This document shows, piece after piece, positions 34,500 through 41,381 of a stretch of 57,877 nt of DNA. The notes under the pieces were generated by a model. It worked only from the letters and a program-made list of their open reading frames with translations. It made no database searches and had not been told where the DNA came from. Position 1 is the stretch's first letter; every line of letters starts with the position of its first letter. The stretch covers positions 1 through 57,877 of the forward strand of contig NZ_LYBV02000019.1 in the NCBI RefSeq assembly GCF_001660705.2, in the 5' to 3' direction. This stretch comes from Saccharicrinis aurantiacus. Lineage in GTDB: Bacteria; Bacteroidota; Bacteroidia; Bacteroidales; Marinilabiliaceae. The position numbers and the translations under genes were made by a program.

Positions 34500-34900
34500 T
34501 TTATAAAATTTTTATTCTCAAAGGTAATTTATAACAAAATCTATATAATAAAACCTTGTTAAATTTAGCTTGGCAAATGTAGTAATAATTATCTAAGTCC
34601 TCGGTTTTTTTTAACAATGATCAGTCTGATTTAAAAGAATTATCCATTCAGCCTTAAAGTGAATAATAATTCCATTTTTGATCGCGTACTAGCAACTATA
34701 GCATCACTTGTGAAACATTTTCATCATATTTGAGTACACTAACACTTAAATATGGGGGTACTGGAAGAAAATACGTTATTTTATGTTAATCCAACATTAA
34801 TCATACTACGAAAGGTGTCTATGTTTTATATTTGCATTGTATTAGACTTAAAATAAACCTTCCAAAAATAGTACTCAAGCACTTTAACAACACATATTCT
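34500..34900. promoter_or_regulatory. divergent intergenic region with a -7 box for the chemoreceptor
   Basis: TATATTTG at 34827-34834 matches TAnnTTTG and would start transcription near 34842, about 60 nt before the chemoreceptor ATG. Nothing else is recognised in this 400-bp stretch; the fabG promoter on the other strand was not located. Confidence 0.4.
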
Positions 34901-36784
34901 ATGAAGAAGAGATCAAATTTAAAGCGTAAAGTAGTTAGTAATATTATTATACCTGTATTTATAGTATACGGCATCATCTTTACCTTTATCAATATTCAGT
35001 TTAATAAAAATGCCAAGGAAAAAGCATTTAATGAAACTTCCTTTTCTGCACAACTATATTCTTCTCGAATCTCACAACTTCTCAATGAGGACTTATCCTT
35101 AGCTAGAGCTTTATCTCAAAGTATTGAAGCCTTTAGAGATGAAGATTCAGATACTAAAATTGAACTTTCAAATAGCGTTATACGCTCTTTTATAGAACAT
35201 AACAGTCACTTAAAAGGAACTTGGTATAATTGGCAATTAAATACATTGTCAGATTCTTGGACAGCTGAATACGGACGAAGAAGAAGTACATTTTTTAATT
35301 ACGGCAATAGCATTACTTACCAATCAGACACCCTTGATAAAAATGGTGAGAGCGGCTTGTATGAAACTATCCATAAGTTAAATGATGAATACGTTACCAA
35401 CCCGTACTACGAGGATTATGAAGGAAAACTAGCGTCTCCAATTATGGAAACTAGCATTTGTGTTCCTATTAAAAGAAATGGCAAATTTATCGGCTTAGTG
35501 GGTTTTGATATGGAGCTTGATAGTTACCAACAGATACTAAATAAGATAGAGAGTATTGAAGGAGCCAATATCATATTATTCTCTAATAATGGTCATATAA
35601 TTGCCTCGAAAAGAGAAGAGTGGGTAGGTAAATTTTTAAAGGATACTGGAATTGATTTTCCTGAGACTAGCGAATTGTTTAATAATTTTGAAGAGAGTAC
35701 TCATTTTTTAAGTGAAATTGAGGATGAGAAAAAAGAAAACAATTTTTATTCATTCTCGAGCATCGAAATTGGTAATTCTCCTGAAAAATGGGGACTTGCT
35801 TATAGCATTCCTGTATCCACTGTATTAGCAGAAACCAGACAACAGTCGCTGATTATATTTGCCTCAGGGGTTATAGGACTTATCATTATAATAGTACTTC
35901 TTTTCGGAATGGTTAAAAATGTTATTAAGCCGATATCTGACACATCAGAATTTGCTTCTCAAATTGCGGAAGGTAATTTAAGTGCATCGATGGATACATC
36001 AAGAAATGATGAAATTGGTATGATGGTTTCTACCTTAGGCGAAATGACTAATAAAATTAACGAAGTAGTTTCTACCGTAATTAGCATTACAAAATCGATA
36101 ACCGGTGCCTCGTCTGAAATTGAATCTGAGACTCAAAAGTTAGCAGAGAGTGCTGCAGAACAAGCTGCTTCTATGGAAGAAATTTCGTCAACAATGGCTG
36201 AAATTATGAGTACCACACACCAAAATACCACCAACTCAATTGAAACCAATCGTATTTCTACGCTTGCTGCTGAAAACATTCAAGAGGGACTAAAAACAGT
36301 GCACCAAAGTAATGAGGCCATGTTAGAGATTACTCAGAAGGTTTTAGAAGTGAAAGAGATAGCTGCACAAACCAATATATTAGCACTAAATGCAGCAGTG
36401 GAAGCAGCCAGAGCCGGTGAAAGTGGAAGAGGATTTGCAGTAGTTGCTACCGAAGTAAGAAAACTAGCGGAGCGCACTAAAAACTTGACTGACGAAATTG
36501 AGAATGCTGCCTTAATGGGACAAGAAGTTTCAAACAGTGCTACTGAGAAATTAGATGCGATAACTCCTGAAATTATAAAAACAGCTGATTTGGTTAATGT
36601 TATTTCGCTTGACTCACAAAACCAAACATCGGCAGTTGATCAGGTAAACAGTACAATTTCGGAGCTAAATAGCATAACCCAACAAAATGCACAACAAGCC
36701 GAATTAATGAATCAGTTTATTGAAAAGTTATCTCAGCAGGCAAAAGCTTTGAATGAAACAATGAACTATTTCACAACAAAATAA
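34901..36784 (+). CDS. methyl-accepting chemotaxis protein with a Cache sensor domain
   Basis: A 627-residue membrane chemoreceptor. The ATG at 34901 ([12 protein letters not shown]) gives a proper first membrane helix; a TTG 69 bp upstream overlaps the promoter box. The order is TM1 (about 12-34), a periplasmic double-Cache domain (35-310, including [10 protein letters not shown] and [10 protein letters not shown]), TM2 (about 325-347), HAMP (350-405) and the MCP coiled-coil. The signalling tip [19 protein letters not shown] is present. No CheA/CheW/CheY cluster accompanies it, so it is an orphan receptor, and its ligand is unknown. A C-terminal CheR-docking pentapeptide is not seen. Confidence 0.92.
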
Positions 36785-36918: not shown

Positions 36919-37641
36919 ATGACTGTCGACTTATTTATACCTTGCTTTATTGATCAAATGTTTCCTAACACAGGATGGAGTGTTGTAAAGATATTGGAAT
37001 CTCAAAATATTGAAGTAAACTACAACCCAAAACAAACTTGTTGTGGACAGCCAATGTTCAACAGTGGATTTTGGAAAAACTCTAAGAAAACAGCCATTAA
37101 ATTCATCAAAGACTTTCCTGAGGACAGACCAATTATTGTACCTTCCGCCTCATGTGCTGGTTATATTAAAAATCACTACACAGAAGTTTTAAAGGATGAA
37201 CCTGATTACCTTGCTGATTGCGAAAGGTTAAAACGTAATGTTATTGAGCTTAGTGATTATTTAGTAAACCATTTAAAGGTAACTGACTTTAAAGCTAGTT
37301 TCCCGCACAAGGTAACATATCACGATGCTTGTTCTGCGCTACGCGAATATGGCTTAACTGATGAGCCGCGCACTTTAATAAATAATGTTGAAGGCATTGA
37401 GTTAACCGAAATGGAGGACACCCACACTTGCTGTGGCTTTGGTGGTACTTTCATGGTAAAAATGGTTCCAATATCAACTGCAATGGTTGAGCAAAAAGTA
37501 CAACATGCAATGGCTACTGGTGCTGAATATATTGTATCAACAGAAGCATCATGCTTATTGAATATTCAGTCGTATATTAATGAACAGAAGCTGAATATTA
37601 AAACCATTCATTTAGCTGATATATTGGCTCAGAATTTATAA
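36919..37641 (+). CDS. CCG-domain Fe-S oxidoreductase subunit (LutA/YkgE-like)
   Basis: A 240-residue cytosolic protein with two cysteine-rich CCG domains. The first has CFIDQMFP and TCCGQPMFNSGF with CAGY. The second has HDACSALREYG and TCCGFGGTF, ending with TEASCLLN. It matches the LutA/YkgE family. These subunits normally act with LutB and LutC in lactate oxidation, or as heterodisulfide-reductase-like modules. No lutB/lutC follows, so it is an orphan here. It lies upstream of the FMN/Fe-S/nitroreductase cluster but 244 bp away, probably on its own transcript. Role in electron transfer is likely, partner unknown. Confidence 0.88.
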   Translation: MTVDLFIPCFIDQMFPNTGWSVVKILESQNIEVNYNPKQTCCGQPMFNSGFWKNSKKTAIKFIKDFPEDRPIIVPSASCAGYIKNHYTEVLKDEPDYLADCERLKRNVIELSDYLVNHLKVTDFKASFPHKVTYHDACSALREYGLTDEPRTLINNVEGIELTEMEDTHTCCGFGGTFMVKMVPISTAMVEQKVQHAMATGAEYIVSTEASCLLNIQSYINEQKLNIKTIHLADILAQNL

Positions 37642-37885: not shown

Positions 37886-37963
37886 ATGAAAAAAATAAGC
37901 ATTAGTGATGTTATTAATATAATACTGGCAGCAGTAGTTGTAATGTTATTACTAGCTCTATGA
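37886..37963 (+). CDS. 25-residue membrane peptide coupled to the FMN-binding gene
   Basis: An ATG at 37886 opens a 25-codon frame. The peptide starts MKKISISDVINII and continues with an uninterrupted hydrophobic run (LAAVVVMLLLAL), which is one transmembrane helix with a positive N-terminus. Its TGA (37961-37963) overlaps the ATG of the following gene (37960) in an ATGA arrangement, the classic sign of translational coupling. A -7 box lies 36 bp upstream. It is too short for standard gene calling. It may be a small subunit or stabiliser of the FMN/Fe-S membrane protein, or just a leader peptide. Confidence 0.55.
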   Translation: MKKISISDVINIILAAVVVMLLLAL

Positions 37964-39129
37964 AAATAAATAATAACGTTATTAAAAAAGCATCAGCGTA
38001 TTGCATTATTATATTACTTGTAGGAGTTTGGGCAATACAAAATGAGCAATTATTCGGCATCAAATTATTCACTAGCGAGGAAGGTGAGAGTCAGAAAACG
38101 GAATTTGAGTTGACAGATATCAAAAGCATATTTAGCTCAGCTGATAAATATGAAGTTAATGCAGATAGTATACTAGTTTACTCAGGAACACAACGTGTAG
38201 GATGGGCGATAAATAGTAGTCCCTTTTCCGATTCGATAACTGGATATACCTCTTCAGTTCCTTTATTAATTGGTTTCGACAACAGTAATAAACTTCAGGG
38301 CATTTCTCTATTAAAGAATTATGAATCACCTGATTTTATTGGTGATATTGTAGCCTCTGGCTTTCTTAAAAGTTGGGATAATATTCATATAAACAAGCTT
38401 AGCAATAAAAAAGTAGATGCTTTTAGTGGTGCTACATTAAGCTCAACAGCCATTATTAAAACCCTCAGACACAGAGTTGGGCAAATTTCGGAACAATCGG
38501 CTTCTGAAGTTGAGAAGATAGATTTATTAACAATTGCAAAAACAGCTTCGGGCTATTTACTAATTATATTAGCACTGCTACAATTTTTCTTTACTAAAAA
38601 GATGAGAAAAGTGAGAACCTTACATCAGGTATTGACAATACTAATATTAGGATTTTGGTTAGGTACCTTCTTATCTATTTTTTCGATAAGCAATTGGATA
38701 ATATATGGTATCGACTTACCCGCTAAACTATTTGTATTCGTCATTTTGATACTAAGTATTGGATTACCATTGTTCACTAGCAAATCATTTTACTGTAGTC
38801 ATCTTTGCCCATTTGGAGCAAGTCAGGATTTATTGGGGAAAATAAAAAAAGATAAGGTCAAATTATCACCACGGGTAAAGGAATTTCTTTCAACATTGCA
38901 AGAGAAAGTATTTGCCACTATTATGCTTCTATTATTCACAGGAGTGGGTTTTGATTTAACGAATATTGAACCTTTTTCAGCATTTATCTTTAAGTCAGCT
39001 TCTATACCCGTATTAATATTGGCATTAACATTCTTGGCACTTTCGGTATTTATACCTCGGCCATGGTGCAGATTTGCATGCCCCACAGGATACATACTAA
39101 ACACCATCAGAAAACCCATTGAGAAATAG
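37960..39129 (+). CDS. membrane FMN-binding / 4Fe-4S polyferredoxin-like protein (NosR/NapH type)
   Basis: A 389-residue membrane electron-transfer protein. TM1 is about residues 10-27. An extracytoplasmic FMN-binding domain (45-170) carries the flavinylation motif SGAT (156-159), with Thr159 the expected covalent FMN site. Further helices (about 188-210, 222-248, 253-272, 315-335 and 345-366) enclose two CX3CP motifs, Cys279/Cys283 and Cys370/Cys374, as in NosR and NapH. These would relay electrons across the membrane to the outside flavin. An ApbE flavin transferase would be needed and is not in the window. The two nitroreductases downstream are the obvious acceptors. Confidence 0.85.
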   Translation: MKINNNVIKKASAYCIIILLVGVWAIQNEQLFGIKLFTSEEGESQKTEFELTDIKSIFSSADKYEVNADSILVYSGTQRVGWAINSSPFSDSITGYTSSVPLLIGFDNSNKLQGISLLKNYESPDFIGDIVASGFLKSWDNIHINKLSNKKVDAFSGATLSSTAIIKTLRHRVGQISEQSASEVEKIDLLTIAKTASGYLLIILALLQFFFTKKMRKVRTLHQVLTILILGFWLGTFLSIFSISNWIIYGIDLPAKLFVFVILILSIGLPLFTSKSFYCSHLCPFGASQDLLGKIKKDKVKLSPRVKEFLSTLQEKVFATIMLLLFTGVGFDLTNIEPFSAFIFKSASIPVLILALTFLALSVFIPRPWCRFACPTGYILNTIRKPIEK

Positions 39130-39174
39130 TATTTATACCCAATAAATTAACAACAACACTTATATTTATATATT

Positions 39175-39837
39175 ATGAATAAGAGTCAATTATTATCACT
39201 TTTACTAGCAATAGCTCTCTTTATAACAACATACAAGTTAGTAGATGTTAGGCGCAAATCGGAAGAAACAGAACAATCAGCAACAACACAACGAGAAGCG
39301 GTTTTATCCGTCATACAAAATAGAAAAAGCGTTAGACATTATACAGATAAAAAAGTATCACAAGAAGATTTAATTACTATTATGGAAGCCGGAATGGCTG
39401 CACCATCAGGACACGATACTCGCCCTTGGCAATTTATTGCTATAACAGATAGAAGCACAATGCTTGAATTACGTAAAGAACTTGAATGGGCCAGTGGTTT
39501 AGATGGTTCACCTGCTGCTATTGTTGTTTGTGGTGATATGAGCAAGGTTGATGAAAGAAACCCTGAGTTTTGGATTACAGATAACTCTGCTGCTACACAA
39601 AATATGCTTCTTGCCATTGAAGCGATGGGTTTAGGTGGTGTTTGGAGCACATTATACCCTGGCGAAGAGCGCATGCAACATGCTAGAAATGTACTTAATC
39701 TTCCCGACCACATAATGCCTTTATGCATTATTCCTTTGGGATATCCAACAGGAGTTGAAAAGGCTAAAGATAAGTTTGATATCAATAATATTCATTGGGA
39801 AAAATGGACCAAAAAATCGGTGAAAACAGATGAGTAA
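39175..39837 (+). CDS. membrane-tethered nitroreductase 1
   Basis: A 220-residue nitroreductase-fold flavoprotein with an N-terminal membrane anchor (about residues 5-22) and a short linker before the enzyme domain. The NTR phosphate-binding start is IQNRKSVRHYTDKKV, followed by MEAGMAAPSGHDTRPWQF, then AATQNMLLAIEAMGLGGVW and LGYPTG near the C-terminus. Few nitroreductases carry a membrane or export signal, so an extracytoplasmic location next to the FMN/Fe-S protein is notable. It likely binds FMN non-covalently and reduces a substrate outside the cytoplasm. It overlaps its paralogue by 8 bp. Confidence 0.85.
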   Translation: MNKSQLLSLLLAIALFITTYKLVDVRRKSEETEQSATTQREAVLSVIQNRKSVRHYTDKKVSQEDLITIMEAGMAAPSGHDTRPWQFIAITDRSTMLELRKELEWASGLDGSPAAIVVCGDMSKVDERNPEFWITDNSAATQNMLLAIEAMGLGGVWSTLYPGEERMQHARNVLNLPDHIMPLCIIPLGYPTGVEKAKDKFDINNIHWEKWTKKSVKTDE

Positions 39838-40447
39838 AAGTCACACATTATCATTATTGCTAGCTATAGTATTATTTATAACTACCTATAAGCTAGCTGA
39901 AACAAGAATTAAACTAGAAGATGTGGCCAATTCTTCAACCACCAAAAGAGATGCTATTCTAGAGGTGATTCATAACAGAAAAAGTGTACGACATTATCTG
40001 GATAAATCAGTCTCTAAAGAAGATTTGCTTACCATTATGAAGGCCGGAATGGCAGCCCCTTCTGGAATTGATAAAAGACCTTGGGAGTTTATTCCTATAA
40101 CAAGCAGTAATAAATTAATTGCCATCAAGCAAAAAGATGCAAAAGCTGCTATTGTTGTATGTGCCAACATGCATAAGACCGATGAACGTGCACCTGAATT
40201 CTGGATTACCGACACCTCTGTAGCTACCCAAAATATGCTATTGGCCATTGAAGGCATGGGACTTGGTGCTGTTTGGAAATCAGTATATCCTTGGAAAGAT
40301 TATACTGAACACATTAAATCTGAGTTAAAGTTGCCTGAACACGTGGTTCCTTTGTGCGTAATCACACTTGGTTATCCCACAGGTAAGGACAAACCAAAGG
40401 ATAAATTCGACCCCAATAATATACATTGGGAAGAATGGGGAGAATAA
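39830..40447 (+). CDS. membrane-tethered nitroreductase 2 (tandem paralogue)
   Basis: A 205-residue paralogue of the preceding gene, with the same anchor (SHTLSLLLAIVLFITTYKLAE) and same motif order: HNRKSVRHYLDKSV, MKAGMAAPSGIDKRPWEF, VATQNMLLAIEGMGLGAVW, LGYPTG. About 14 residues are missing after the first core motif, where copy 1 has ELEWASGLDG, so the active-site lid differs. Its ATG lies inside the end of gene 1 (ATGAGTAA, 8-bp overlap), so the two are coupled and could form a heterodimer, since nitroreductases are obligate dimers. This ends the plus-strand cluster. Confidence 0.85.
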   Translation: MSKSHTLSLLLAIVLFITTYKLAETRIKLEDVANSSTTKRDAILEVIHNRKSVRHYLDKSVSKEDLLTIMKAGMAAPSGIDKRPWEFIPITSSNKLIAIKQKDAKAAIVVCANMHKTDERAPEFWITDTSVATQNMLLAIEGMGLGAVWKSVYPWKDYTEHIKSELKLPEHVVPLCVITLGYPTGKDKPKDKFDPNNIHWEEWGE

Positions 40448-40455
40448 TAGATTAA

Positions 40456-41322
40456 TCATAAAAAACCCTCCCAGGCAAGAGCGATAATTACAGTTCGGGT
40501 TAGCCCGTCTGGGCGAGCTTTTCTAACATAAACAGGCACCGCTAACCTAGCTTTTAAATTCCCTTTTTGGATTGCTTTTATGGCTTGTAAGCCGAGATTA
40601 AAAGAAATTCCTTCTGATTCTGGCACTCTTTCTCCATCATAAATATAATCTCCTTTGATACGATAAACAGATACAACTGATGCCATCCAATTTAAATTGG
40701 TACTGGCCCACATGCGGTTATATCGCAGCATAATATCATCTCCCCTATCTAAATGATAACTATTCTGAAAATCAATAAACTTTCCGTTTGGTTCAAAGGT
40801 ATTATCAATAGCCCCAAATGGCAACTGATAACCTAATGCAACTGACCAGGAAGGCATCTTATATTCACCTTGAAATAATAAATCATAAGTACCCAATCCT
40901 CCTTGCAGGGCCATTGGCAGATGATTACCGGCGGCATCTTGCGCGGTGACAGTTCCAATGGGGAATTTAGCACCAAGTGTAATACCAATTTTATCGCTTA
41001 CTAAATACCTGCTTGCTAAAGTAGCATCACTAATATAGGCGTACCATTCTTGACTATAGTATGCATTACGAAGTGGTATTGAAAAAGAAATATCTAATTT
41101 ATCGGATGCTTTCAAAGCTAAACCAAAAACAGAATGCAAATATTGCATATCCTGTTCTCCCAACTCCCAGGTTTGTTCAACACTCAAGGATAGGGGGATT
41201 GATTTTTCGTGCGAAGTTACTGATGATTGCGGCATACTGCAAATACCCGCATCACTACACCCCTGCGCTTTCGCGAGATATGGAACTACTAGAAACAAAA
41301 ATATGCTAAATCTTCTAATCAT
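40456..41322 (-). CDS. exported outer-membrane beta-barrel-like protein with N-terminal Cys pair
   Basis: A 288-residue protein. The ATG at 41322 (MIRRFSIFLFL) gives a signal peptide ending YLAKAQ. The mature protein starts GCSDAGICSM, a Cys-x5-Cys pair I associate with a Bacteroidetes envelope family. The rest is amphipathic beta strands typical of a small transporter-like barrel (KIGITLGAKFPIG, WSVALGYQLPFG, LKARLAVPVYVRK). It ends with an aromatic-rich strand but without a classic C-terminal Phe. It converges on the nitroreductase pair with only 8 bp between stop codons. It may be the outer-membrane partner of that system, but this is inference from position. Confidence 0.65.
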   Translation of the reverse strand: MIRRFSIFLFLVVPYLAKAQGCSDAGICSMPQSSVTSHEKSIPLSLSVEQTWELGEQDMQYLHSVFGLALKASDKLDISFSIPLRNAYYSQEWYAYISDATLASRYLVSDKIGITLGAKFPIGTVTAQDAAGNHLPMALQGGLGTYDLLFQGEYKMPSWSVALGYQLPFGAIDNTFEPNGKFIDFQNSYHLDRGDDIMLRYNRMWASTNLNWMASVVSVYRIKGDYIYDGERVPESEGISFNLGLQAIKAIQKGNLKARLAVPVYVRKARPDGLTRTVIIALAWEGFL

Positions 41323-41381
41323 AATTAGAAAACCTAGCATATCCAATATTGTTTAATTCCTTCTACAAAGAAAATCCTCTA

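Follow-up and report, generated by a model that had tools for sequence, protein, structure and literature searches.

A membrane FMN protein encoded with anchored flavoenzymes in Saccharicrinis aurantiacus and its relatives: a candidate flavin relay with exchangeable partners

Flavinylated systems are described in the main texts of PMC8238504, which includes a NapH-like group, and PMC11334425. NapH-like proteins combine a Fer4_5 domain (PF12801) with an N-terminal flavin mononucleotide (FMN)-binding domain and are used in a modular way with varied oxidoreductases, the partners named in the main text of PMC8238504 being a nitrite reductase, an alcohol oxidase, Nos and Pce. The RdhC/PceC proteins, as presented in the relevant passages of PMC5928378, have an FMN_bind domain with a conserved threonine, six predicted helices, two CX3CP motifs and no C-terminal ferredoxin domain, and are encoded with their enzyme. 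According to these passages, PceC binds FMN through a threonine in the motif that reads SGAT in the protein described below, and experiment placed its FMN domain on the exocytoplasmic side; NosR is also given a periplasmic FMN domain and CX3CP motifs. A protein with a comparable layout is encoded in a 57,877-nucleotide (nt) stretch of the Saccharicrinis aurantiacus genome (contig NZ_LYBV02000019.1), referred to here as the window, where it is followed by two membrane-anchored nitroreductases. The module occupies positions 37886–40447 on the + strand and consists of four open reading frames (ORFs), for a protein of 25 amino acids (aa), an FMN_bind/Fer4_5 membrane protein (the FMN protein) and nitroreductases 1 and 2. 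We propose, with a probability of roughly 0.54, that it forms a flavin relay across the membrane, ending in a flavoenzyme that is docked outside the cytoplasm and can be exchanged. The features of the module are as follows.

37886–37963, + strand: 25-aa single-helix microprotein with an INIILA motif, which relatives have in their enzyme anchors; the stop codon overlaps the start of the FMN gene (ATGA)
37960–39129, + strand: FMN_bind/Fer4_5 membrane protein of 389 aa (Pfam), six predicted helices, RdhC/PceC-like layout
38425–38436, + strand: SGAT motif (residues 156–159), putative covalent FMN site at T159 from motif conservation
38794–38811, + strand: first CX3CP motif (residues 279–284), predicted cytoplasmic side, invariant in nine of nine aligned rows, in a K/R-rich loop
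39067–39084, + strand: second CX3CP motif (residues 370–375), predicted cytoplasmic side, invariant in nine of nine aligned rows, in a K/R-rich C-terminus
39175–39837, + strand: anchored nitroreductase 1 (PF00881), anchor at about residues 6–23
39830–40447, + strand: anchored nitroreductase 2 (PF00881), with an 8-residue lid deletion in the alignment

The coordinates and motifs agree with an initial annotation of the window, which had recognised a NosR/NapH-like membrane protein with an SGAT and two CX3CP motifs, followed by two overlapping, N-terminally anchored nitroreductases distinguished by a lid deletion. Both nitroreductases matched PF00881 (85.6 and 80.3 bits, against a cut-off of 23.5), their genes overlap by 8 nt, each protein has one N-terminal hydrophobic stretch, and nitroreductase 2 was without eight residues of the lid region when the two were aligned. 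The same deletion was present in the second nitroreductase of Labilibacter marinus (locus L003, 7976–8599). A cupin-like ORF, judged by eye, sits between the two nitroreductases of that species (L003, 6781–7737). The start coordinate given in the initial annotation, 37886, is that of the separate 25-aa ORF, which had been left undescribed.

Pfam placed FMN_bind at residues 95–169 of the FMN protein together with two Fer4_5 stretches, PF04205 and PF12801 both being over the cut-off within the one protein. It has five cysteines, C15 and the four within the CX3CP motifs, and no ferredoxin domain; D153, G157, A158 and T159 were invariant in the nine aligned sequences, as were both CX3CP motifs. 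Six hydropathy windows were detected, and when helix limits were set by hand the predicted-inside segments carried 12.5, 50, 20.5 and 20.8 lysine plus arginine (K+R) per 100 residues, versus 9.2, 0 and 7.7 in the predicted-outside segments, a distribution that would agree with an exocytoplasmic FMN domain as in PceC. The only solved structure recovered with this protein was RnfG (E=0.059). The partner of the window protein is an anchored FMN enzyme, whereas that of RdhC is a cobamide reductive dehalogenase with RdhB as its anchor (passages on RdhC in PMC5928378), and because the adjoining genes encode nitroreductases and not a reductive dehalogenase, the FMN protein was not filed as RdhC. It differs from NosR in having no C-terminal [4Fe-4S] ferredoxin domain, and no nosZ was found among the seven window ORFs tested with Pfam. 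It also differs from the NapH-like systems in its surroundings, no docking helix or microprotein being described for them in the relevant passages of PMC8238504, supplements aside. In a sample of 396 genomes from the class, a thin one with few candidates scored per genome, the FMN protein was found at E≤1e-25 in one genome, the window's own, which at this cut-off suggests a restriction to the order (Bacteroidales).

The pairing of FMN protein and nitroreductase noted in the initial annotation was also found in relatives, across the order. Genetic context was mapped for 76 FMN loci collected from the same order, several genomes giving two; this and the other order-wide searches are samples. A flavoenzyme was encoded on the same strand within three ORFs downstream of the FMN gene in 42 of the 76, as the next ORF in 41 and one ORF further in L004. 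Two FMN proteins were fused to an enzyme, a nitroreductase in L048 and a flavin reductase in L065, and the FMN gene of L112 was followed by a gene for an anchored protein of no recognised family. The ORF caller was simple and did not detect the FMN gene of L068, which was seen in L035; an anchored nitroreductase comes next in this locus, and L068 was left uncounted. Eleven FMN proteins that were designated as distant before the tree was built were afterwards joined by it in one clade (100/99), and none of them had a partner. In the ingroup, 45 of 65 loci had one, whether adjacent, one ORF further, fused or of the unrecognised family. For 41 of 63 FMN genes the next same-strand ORF encoded a flavoenzyme; among non-FMN ORFs from these loci the figure was 8 of 364, and at least five of those eight themselves belong to such modules; the linkage between FMN protein and flavoenzyme is therefore more than chance.

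Examples of the partners were typed with Pfam as nitroreductase (PF00881), flavin reductase (PF01613), a fusion of both, or old yellow enzyme (OYE, PF00724), and the remaining partners were assigned using hidden Markov models built from these typed examples. A tree was built from 74 of the 76 FMN proteins, L004_4 and L134_0 being dropped as shorter than 330 aa. The FMN protein of the window grouped with those of Labilibacter, Labilibaculum and Puteibacter (100/100), all of which have a nitroreductase partner. Partner labels required 16 changes on the tree (shuffled mean 43.2, minimum possible 9), and the conduit is constant while the family of the partner enzyme changes. The recurring core consists of the FMN protein and one anchored flavoenzyme, together with the 25-aa helix protein in the clade of the window. 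The tie between a membrane redox module and nitroreductases, as initially annotated, thus holds for a coupling that recurs across the order, and the tandem pair and the convergent downstream gene fall outside the core. Conservation of the four-gene neighbourhood as a whole was not borne out: the convergent gene was not found in the stretches of relatives searched, and the nitroreductase pair was found in two of five close loci (the window and L003).

Some minor features of these loci can be recorded here. The frame of the FMN gene in L004 (4992–5870) is interrupted in this metagenome-assembled genome. The distant FMN proteins of L011, L075, L079, L081, L135 and L137 come after proteins of 487–558 aa and 94–102 aa, an rdhABC-like layout. 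A Tat (twin-arginine translocation)-like RRDF/RREF start was seen in the four larger proteins for which the start was visible. In L011, the only one tested, Pfam found Fe-S domains and no reductive dehalogenase domain.

The partner enzymes share an anchor helix. An N-terminal hydrophobic stretch was found in 44 of the 46, the others being L132_7, for which the anchor sits in a separate short frame in genome G314, and L114_7, the start of which is unresolved. Outside the clade of the window, the aligned anchors (n=37) had asparagine in 36, leucine three positions on in 36 and then alanine in 32, and 34 of the 37 scored at least 16.9 when each was left out in turn. Among 206 other N-terminal-helix proteins of the loci, only the L112 partner of no recognised family reached the scores of the microproteins (13.2–14.0), the next best scoring 4.5. 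When 46,033 start codons were scanned, nothing other than the partners and the microprotein scored 9 or more; because 37 of the proteins recovered had served to train the matrix, only the absence of other matches is informative. When a 27-row profile of the anchor was run against the genome of the window, it matched four proteins at E≤1e-5, each already a row of the profile and located in one of the two FMN loci; the next match had E=0.77. Across 71 genomes of the family there were 26 matches at E≤1e-3, 14 profile rows and 12 non-rows (some of them close relatives of rows), and all 26 lay beside an FMN gene; the 46 genomes with no FMN match had no anchor-profile match at this threshold.

The anchor-bearing proteins of no recognised family are the 302-aa partner in L112 (also found in L084 at 1348, - strand) and a related protein in L191 (1501–2421). 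The L112 partner had no Pfam match over the cut-off and no convincing solved structure, and was picked out beside the FMN gene by the anchor profile alone, which offers a way to find further partners. The L191 protein is flanked by ORFs that resemble glycoside hydrolases by eye, and its L112 relative adjoins an FMN gene.

The same association held within the genome of the window, which has seven nitroreductase matches. The three linked to an FMN gene are all anchored; of the four unlinked ones, three start directly with the domain and the fourth is part of a 360-aa ORF (L148) whose N-terminal region differs. This genome has a second FMN protein (contig C30, L071), and its downstream partner is an anchored flavin reductase-nitroreductase fusion. 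An AlphaFold model of nitroreductase 1 (mean predicted local distance difference test score, pLDDT, 72.9) had a helix at residues 3–34. The nearest solved structures were 3m5k, 3kwk and 3e10. The first two, from Parabacteroides distasonis (BDI_1728) and Bacteroides thetaiotaomicron, have the same fold, with 48% and 44% identity over the domain and solved chains of 172 and 175 residues. Iodotyrosine deiodinase was also among the fold matches at 19–24% identity, distant in sequence and alike in fold only. It is an FMN enzyme of the nitroreductase superfamily that is held by an N-terminal membrane helix, and we know of no FMN_bind conduit for it.

The 25-aa ORF is a genuine coding gene under purifying selection. 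The window and the four close relatives L003–L006 all carry it with an identical FMN-gene overlap, and a string-pattern search of 79 mapped loci found it in those five and in none of the other 74. The pooled pN/pS (ratio of non-synonymous to synonymous differences per site) was 0.15 in frame over ten pairs; the two alternative frames gave 0.75 and 2.28, and pS was 0.71–0.95 in six of the ten pairs. The anchor-profile score of the window microprotein was 13.9, versus 4.5 or less for 205 of the 206 other N-terminal-helix proteins. None of the seven enzyme anchors in the five microprotein loci keeps the asparagine (serine in six, alanine in one). Tentatively, the LN..LA helix may be a transferable docking label, any flavoenzyme that gains it being drawn to the flavinylated conduit; in the clade of the window the label would have become a separate 25-aa subunit, and the enzyme helices would have lost their asparagine. 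A trade of the asparagine for the microprotein is suggestive only, because it represents one evolutionary event and L043, the sister row in the tree, is without both.

What the analysis shows is the gene content, its recurrence, the helix motif common to the anchors and that the microprotein is coding; the topology, the complex, the direction of electron flow and the substrate of the proposed relay are inferred. The FMN protein would take electrons at the membrane or its cytoplasmic side, from menaquinol or from a cytoplasmic donor at the CX3CP face, and hand them on to an FMN covalently bound in its periplasmic domain. By homology, this FMN may be attached by a lipoprotein-like ApbE; a search elsewhere in the genome, suggested in the initial annotation, found two apbE copies on contig C67, one of them with a lipoprotein-like start. 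The covalent FMN would then reduce, flavin to flavin, the non-covalent FMN of the nitroreductases, which would be kept beside the FMN protein by the N-terminal membrane helix in an N-in/C-out orientation. Its conserved LN..LA face points to the helix as a docking element, a copy of which would be supplied in the clade of the window by the microprotein, probably as a small structural subunit. Judging by family chemistry, the probable substrates for reduction by the terminal enzymes are small electrophiles, for example quinones, nitro compounds, enones or free flavins. In five of the 76 loci an HxlR-type regulator is encoded no more than four ORFs from the FMN gene (L140 855–1226, L061 7741–8097, L063 3437–3790, L010 8068–8451 and L117 2222–2584, the first four identified with Pfam). 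Bacillus YodB, a member of the HxlR family, senses electrophiles, and such neighbours offer a thin analogy that would fit the reduction of quinones, nitro compounds or similar.

Several observations weigh against the flavin relay, and they are best taken with the alternatives that draw on them. The initial annotation had placed the nitroreductases outside the cytoplasm, and the enzymes are probably tethered on the outer side of the membrane, a location favoured by two fusions and one signal-peptide-like start, with the charge evidence mixed. In L065 a single open frame extends from the CX3CP end across an additional helix to the flavin reductase domain (no ATG precedes the helix; a GTG is present), and L048 has seven hydropathy windows with an extra helix before the enzyme domain. 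Near the FMN gene of L140, divergent from it and one regulator gene away, a nitroreductase has a signal-peptide-like start by eye. Of 44 anchors, 36 had a higher net charge ahead of the helix than over the 15 residues that follow it (two equal, six lower), and K+R per residue was 0.32 before and 0.14 after; by raw K+R count, the 15 residues following the helix exceeded the part before it in 23 of the 44, equalled it in 13 and fell below it in eight. As the raw counts do not favour an N-in orientation, a reversed topology was given more weight and confidence in the best model was lowered. In this main alternative, which we consider unlikely, cytoplasmic nitroreductase, flavin reductase and OYE domains would be an NAD(P)H-oxidising input, the CX3CP motifs would receive the electrons and the periplasmic FMN would be the output. 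It fits the normal habit of the PF00881, PF01613 and PF00724 families, which oxidise NAD(P)H in the cytoplasm, and the window nitroreductases, which have no cleaved or Tat signal by eye and would need FMN loading outside if the relay is correct. It does not fit the majority of net charges, the start of the L140 nitroreductase or the fusions, which put the enzyme domain outside if the FMN domain is outside. The fusions have their own weaknesses: only six hydropathy windows of L065 pass the threshold, the seventh helix resting on homology, its extra helix is without the anchor motif, and the L048 sequence contains Ns, a possible assembly error.

To these points are added the 20 of 65 ingroup FMN genes with no recognised partner nearby, the location of apbE on another contig, unlinked to the module, and the AlphaFold model of the FMN protein, which had six long helices at low confidence (pLDDT 59.8 from a 9-row alignment) and was too poor for contacts. 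Electrons could also run the other way, from anchored periplasmic dehydrogenases through the FMN protein to the quinone pool. The nitroreductase superfamily does include oxidases, the cyclodipeptide oxidases 8uc3 and 9exv being among the sequence and fold matches, and the NapH-like systems in the main text of PMC8238504 involve reductases and an alcohol oxidase; we nevertheless regard this direction as improbable, reduction being the usual chemistry of the nitroreductase, flavin reductase and OYE families and the layout resembling RdhC and NosR, which are thought to donate to reductases (passages of PMC5928378 and PMC12052999). As for docking, three of the 37 anchors scored no better than background when left out (L043, -3.4; the OYE of L063, -2.2; L066, 4.4). 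In the family, five of 28 ingroup FMN genes had no adjoining profile match at E≤0.01 (G310, G339, G300:C52, G311:C3 and G336:C3:1437030), and three weaker matches (E 0.0013–0.0081) lay away from FMN genes, in a second copy of the unrecognised 302-aa family, a large sensor-like protein and an OmpH-like protein. The motif might be a signal anchor merely typical of the lineage, and the 25-aa ORF a device for translational coupling, with no docking by either. The three anchors that miss the motif, the ATGA overlap and the restriction of the microprotein to one clade with a single origin would all suit this explanation. We think it unlikely: enzyme families that are unrelated to one another carry the motif, every profile match at E≤1e-3 in the 71 genomes lay beside an FMN gene, and coupling alone would not require the purifying selection on the amino acids of the 25-aa ORF.

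If the flavin relay is correct, one membrane conduit serves several unrelated flavin enzymes, a short helix being their address label, with the microprotein as a compact case of a conserved 25-residue membrane subunit. This would explain the role of some NapH-like flavinylated proteins with unknown reactions (main text of PMC8238504). The word 'nitroreductase' is absent from the main texts of PMC8238504 and PMC11334425, and the parts of PMC12052999 that use it do so for engineered flavin-fixing only. A literature search recovered no recognised description of a periplasmic nitroreductase or of such a partner for an FMN protein, supplementary tables, which may list one, lying outside that search.

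Two genes adjoin the module:

36919–37641, + strand: stand-alone LutA-like cysteine-rich (CCG) protein, directly upstream of the module
40456–41346, - strand: convergent gene, product probably exported, no Pfam match (E≤0.1), ending 8 bp from nitroreductase 2

The convergent gene had been annotated as an exported beta-barrel. The 8-bp spacing and, by eye, a signal-peptide-like start were confirmed, but 'beta-barrel' found no support in Pfam. It was rejected as a member of the module when tblastn revealed no homologue in the FMN-locus stretches of relatives available at that point, and the same search gave the same outcome for the LutA-like gene. Further upstream, a chemoreceptor-like gene (34832–36784) had tblastn matches in three other loci (L119, L131 and L135); chemoreceptors are common.

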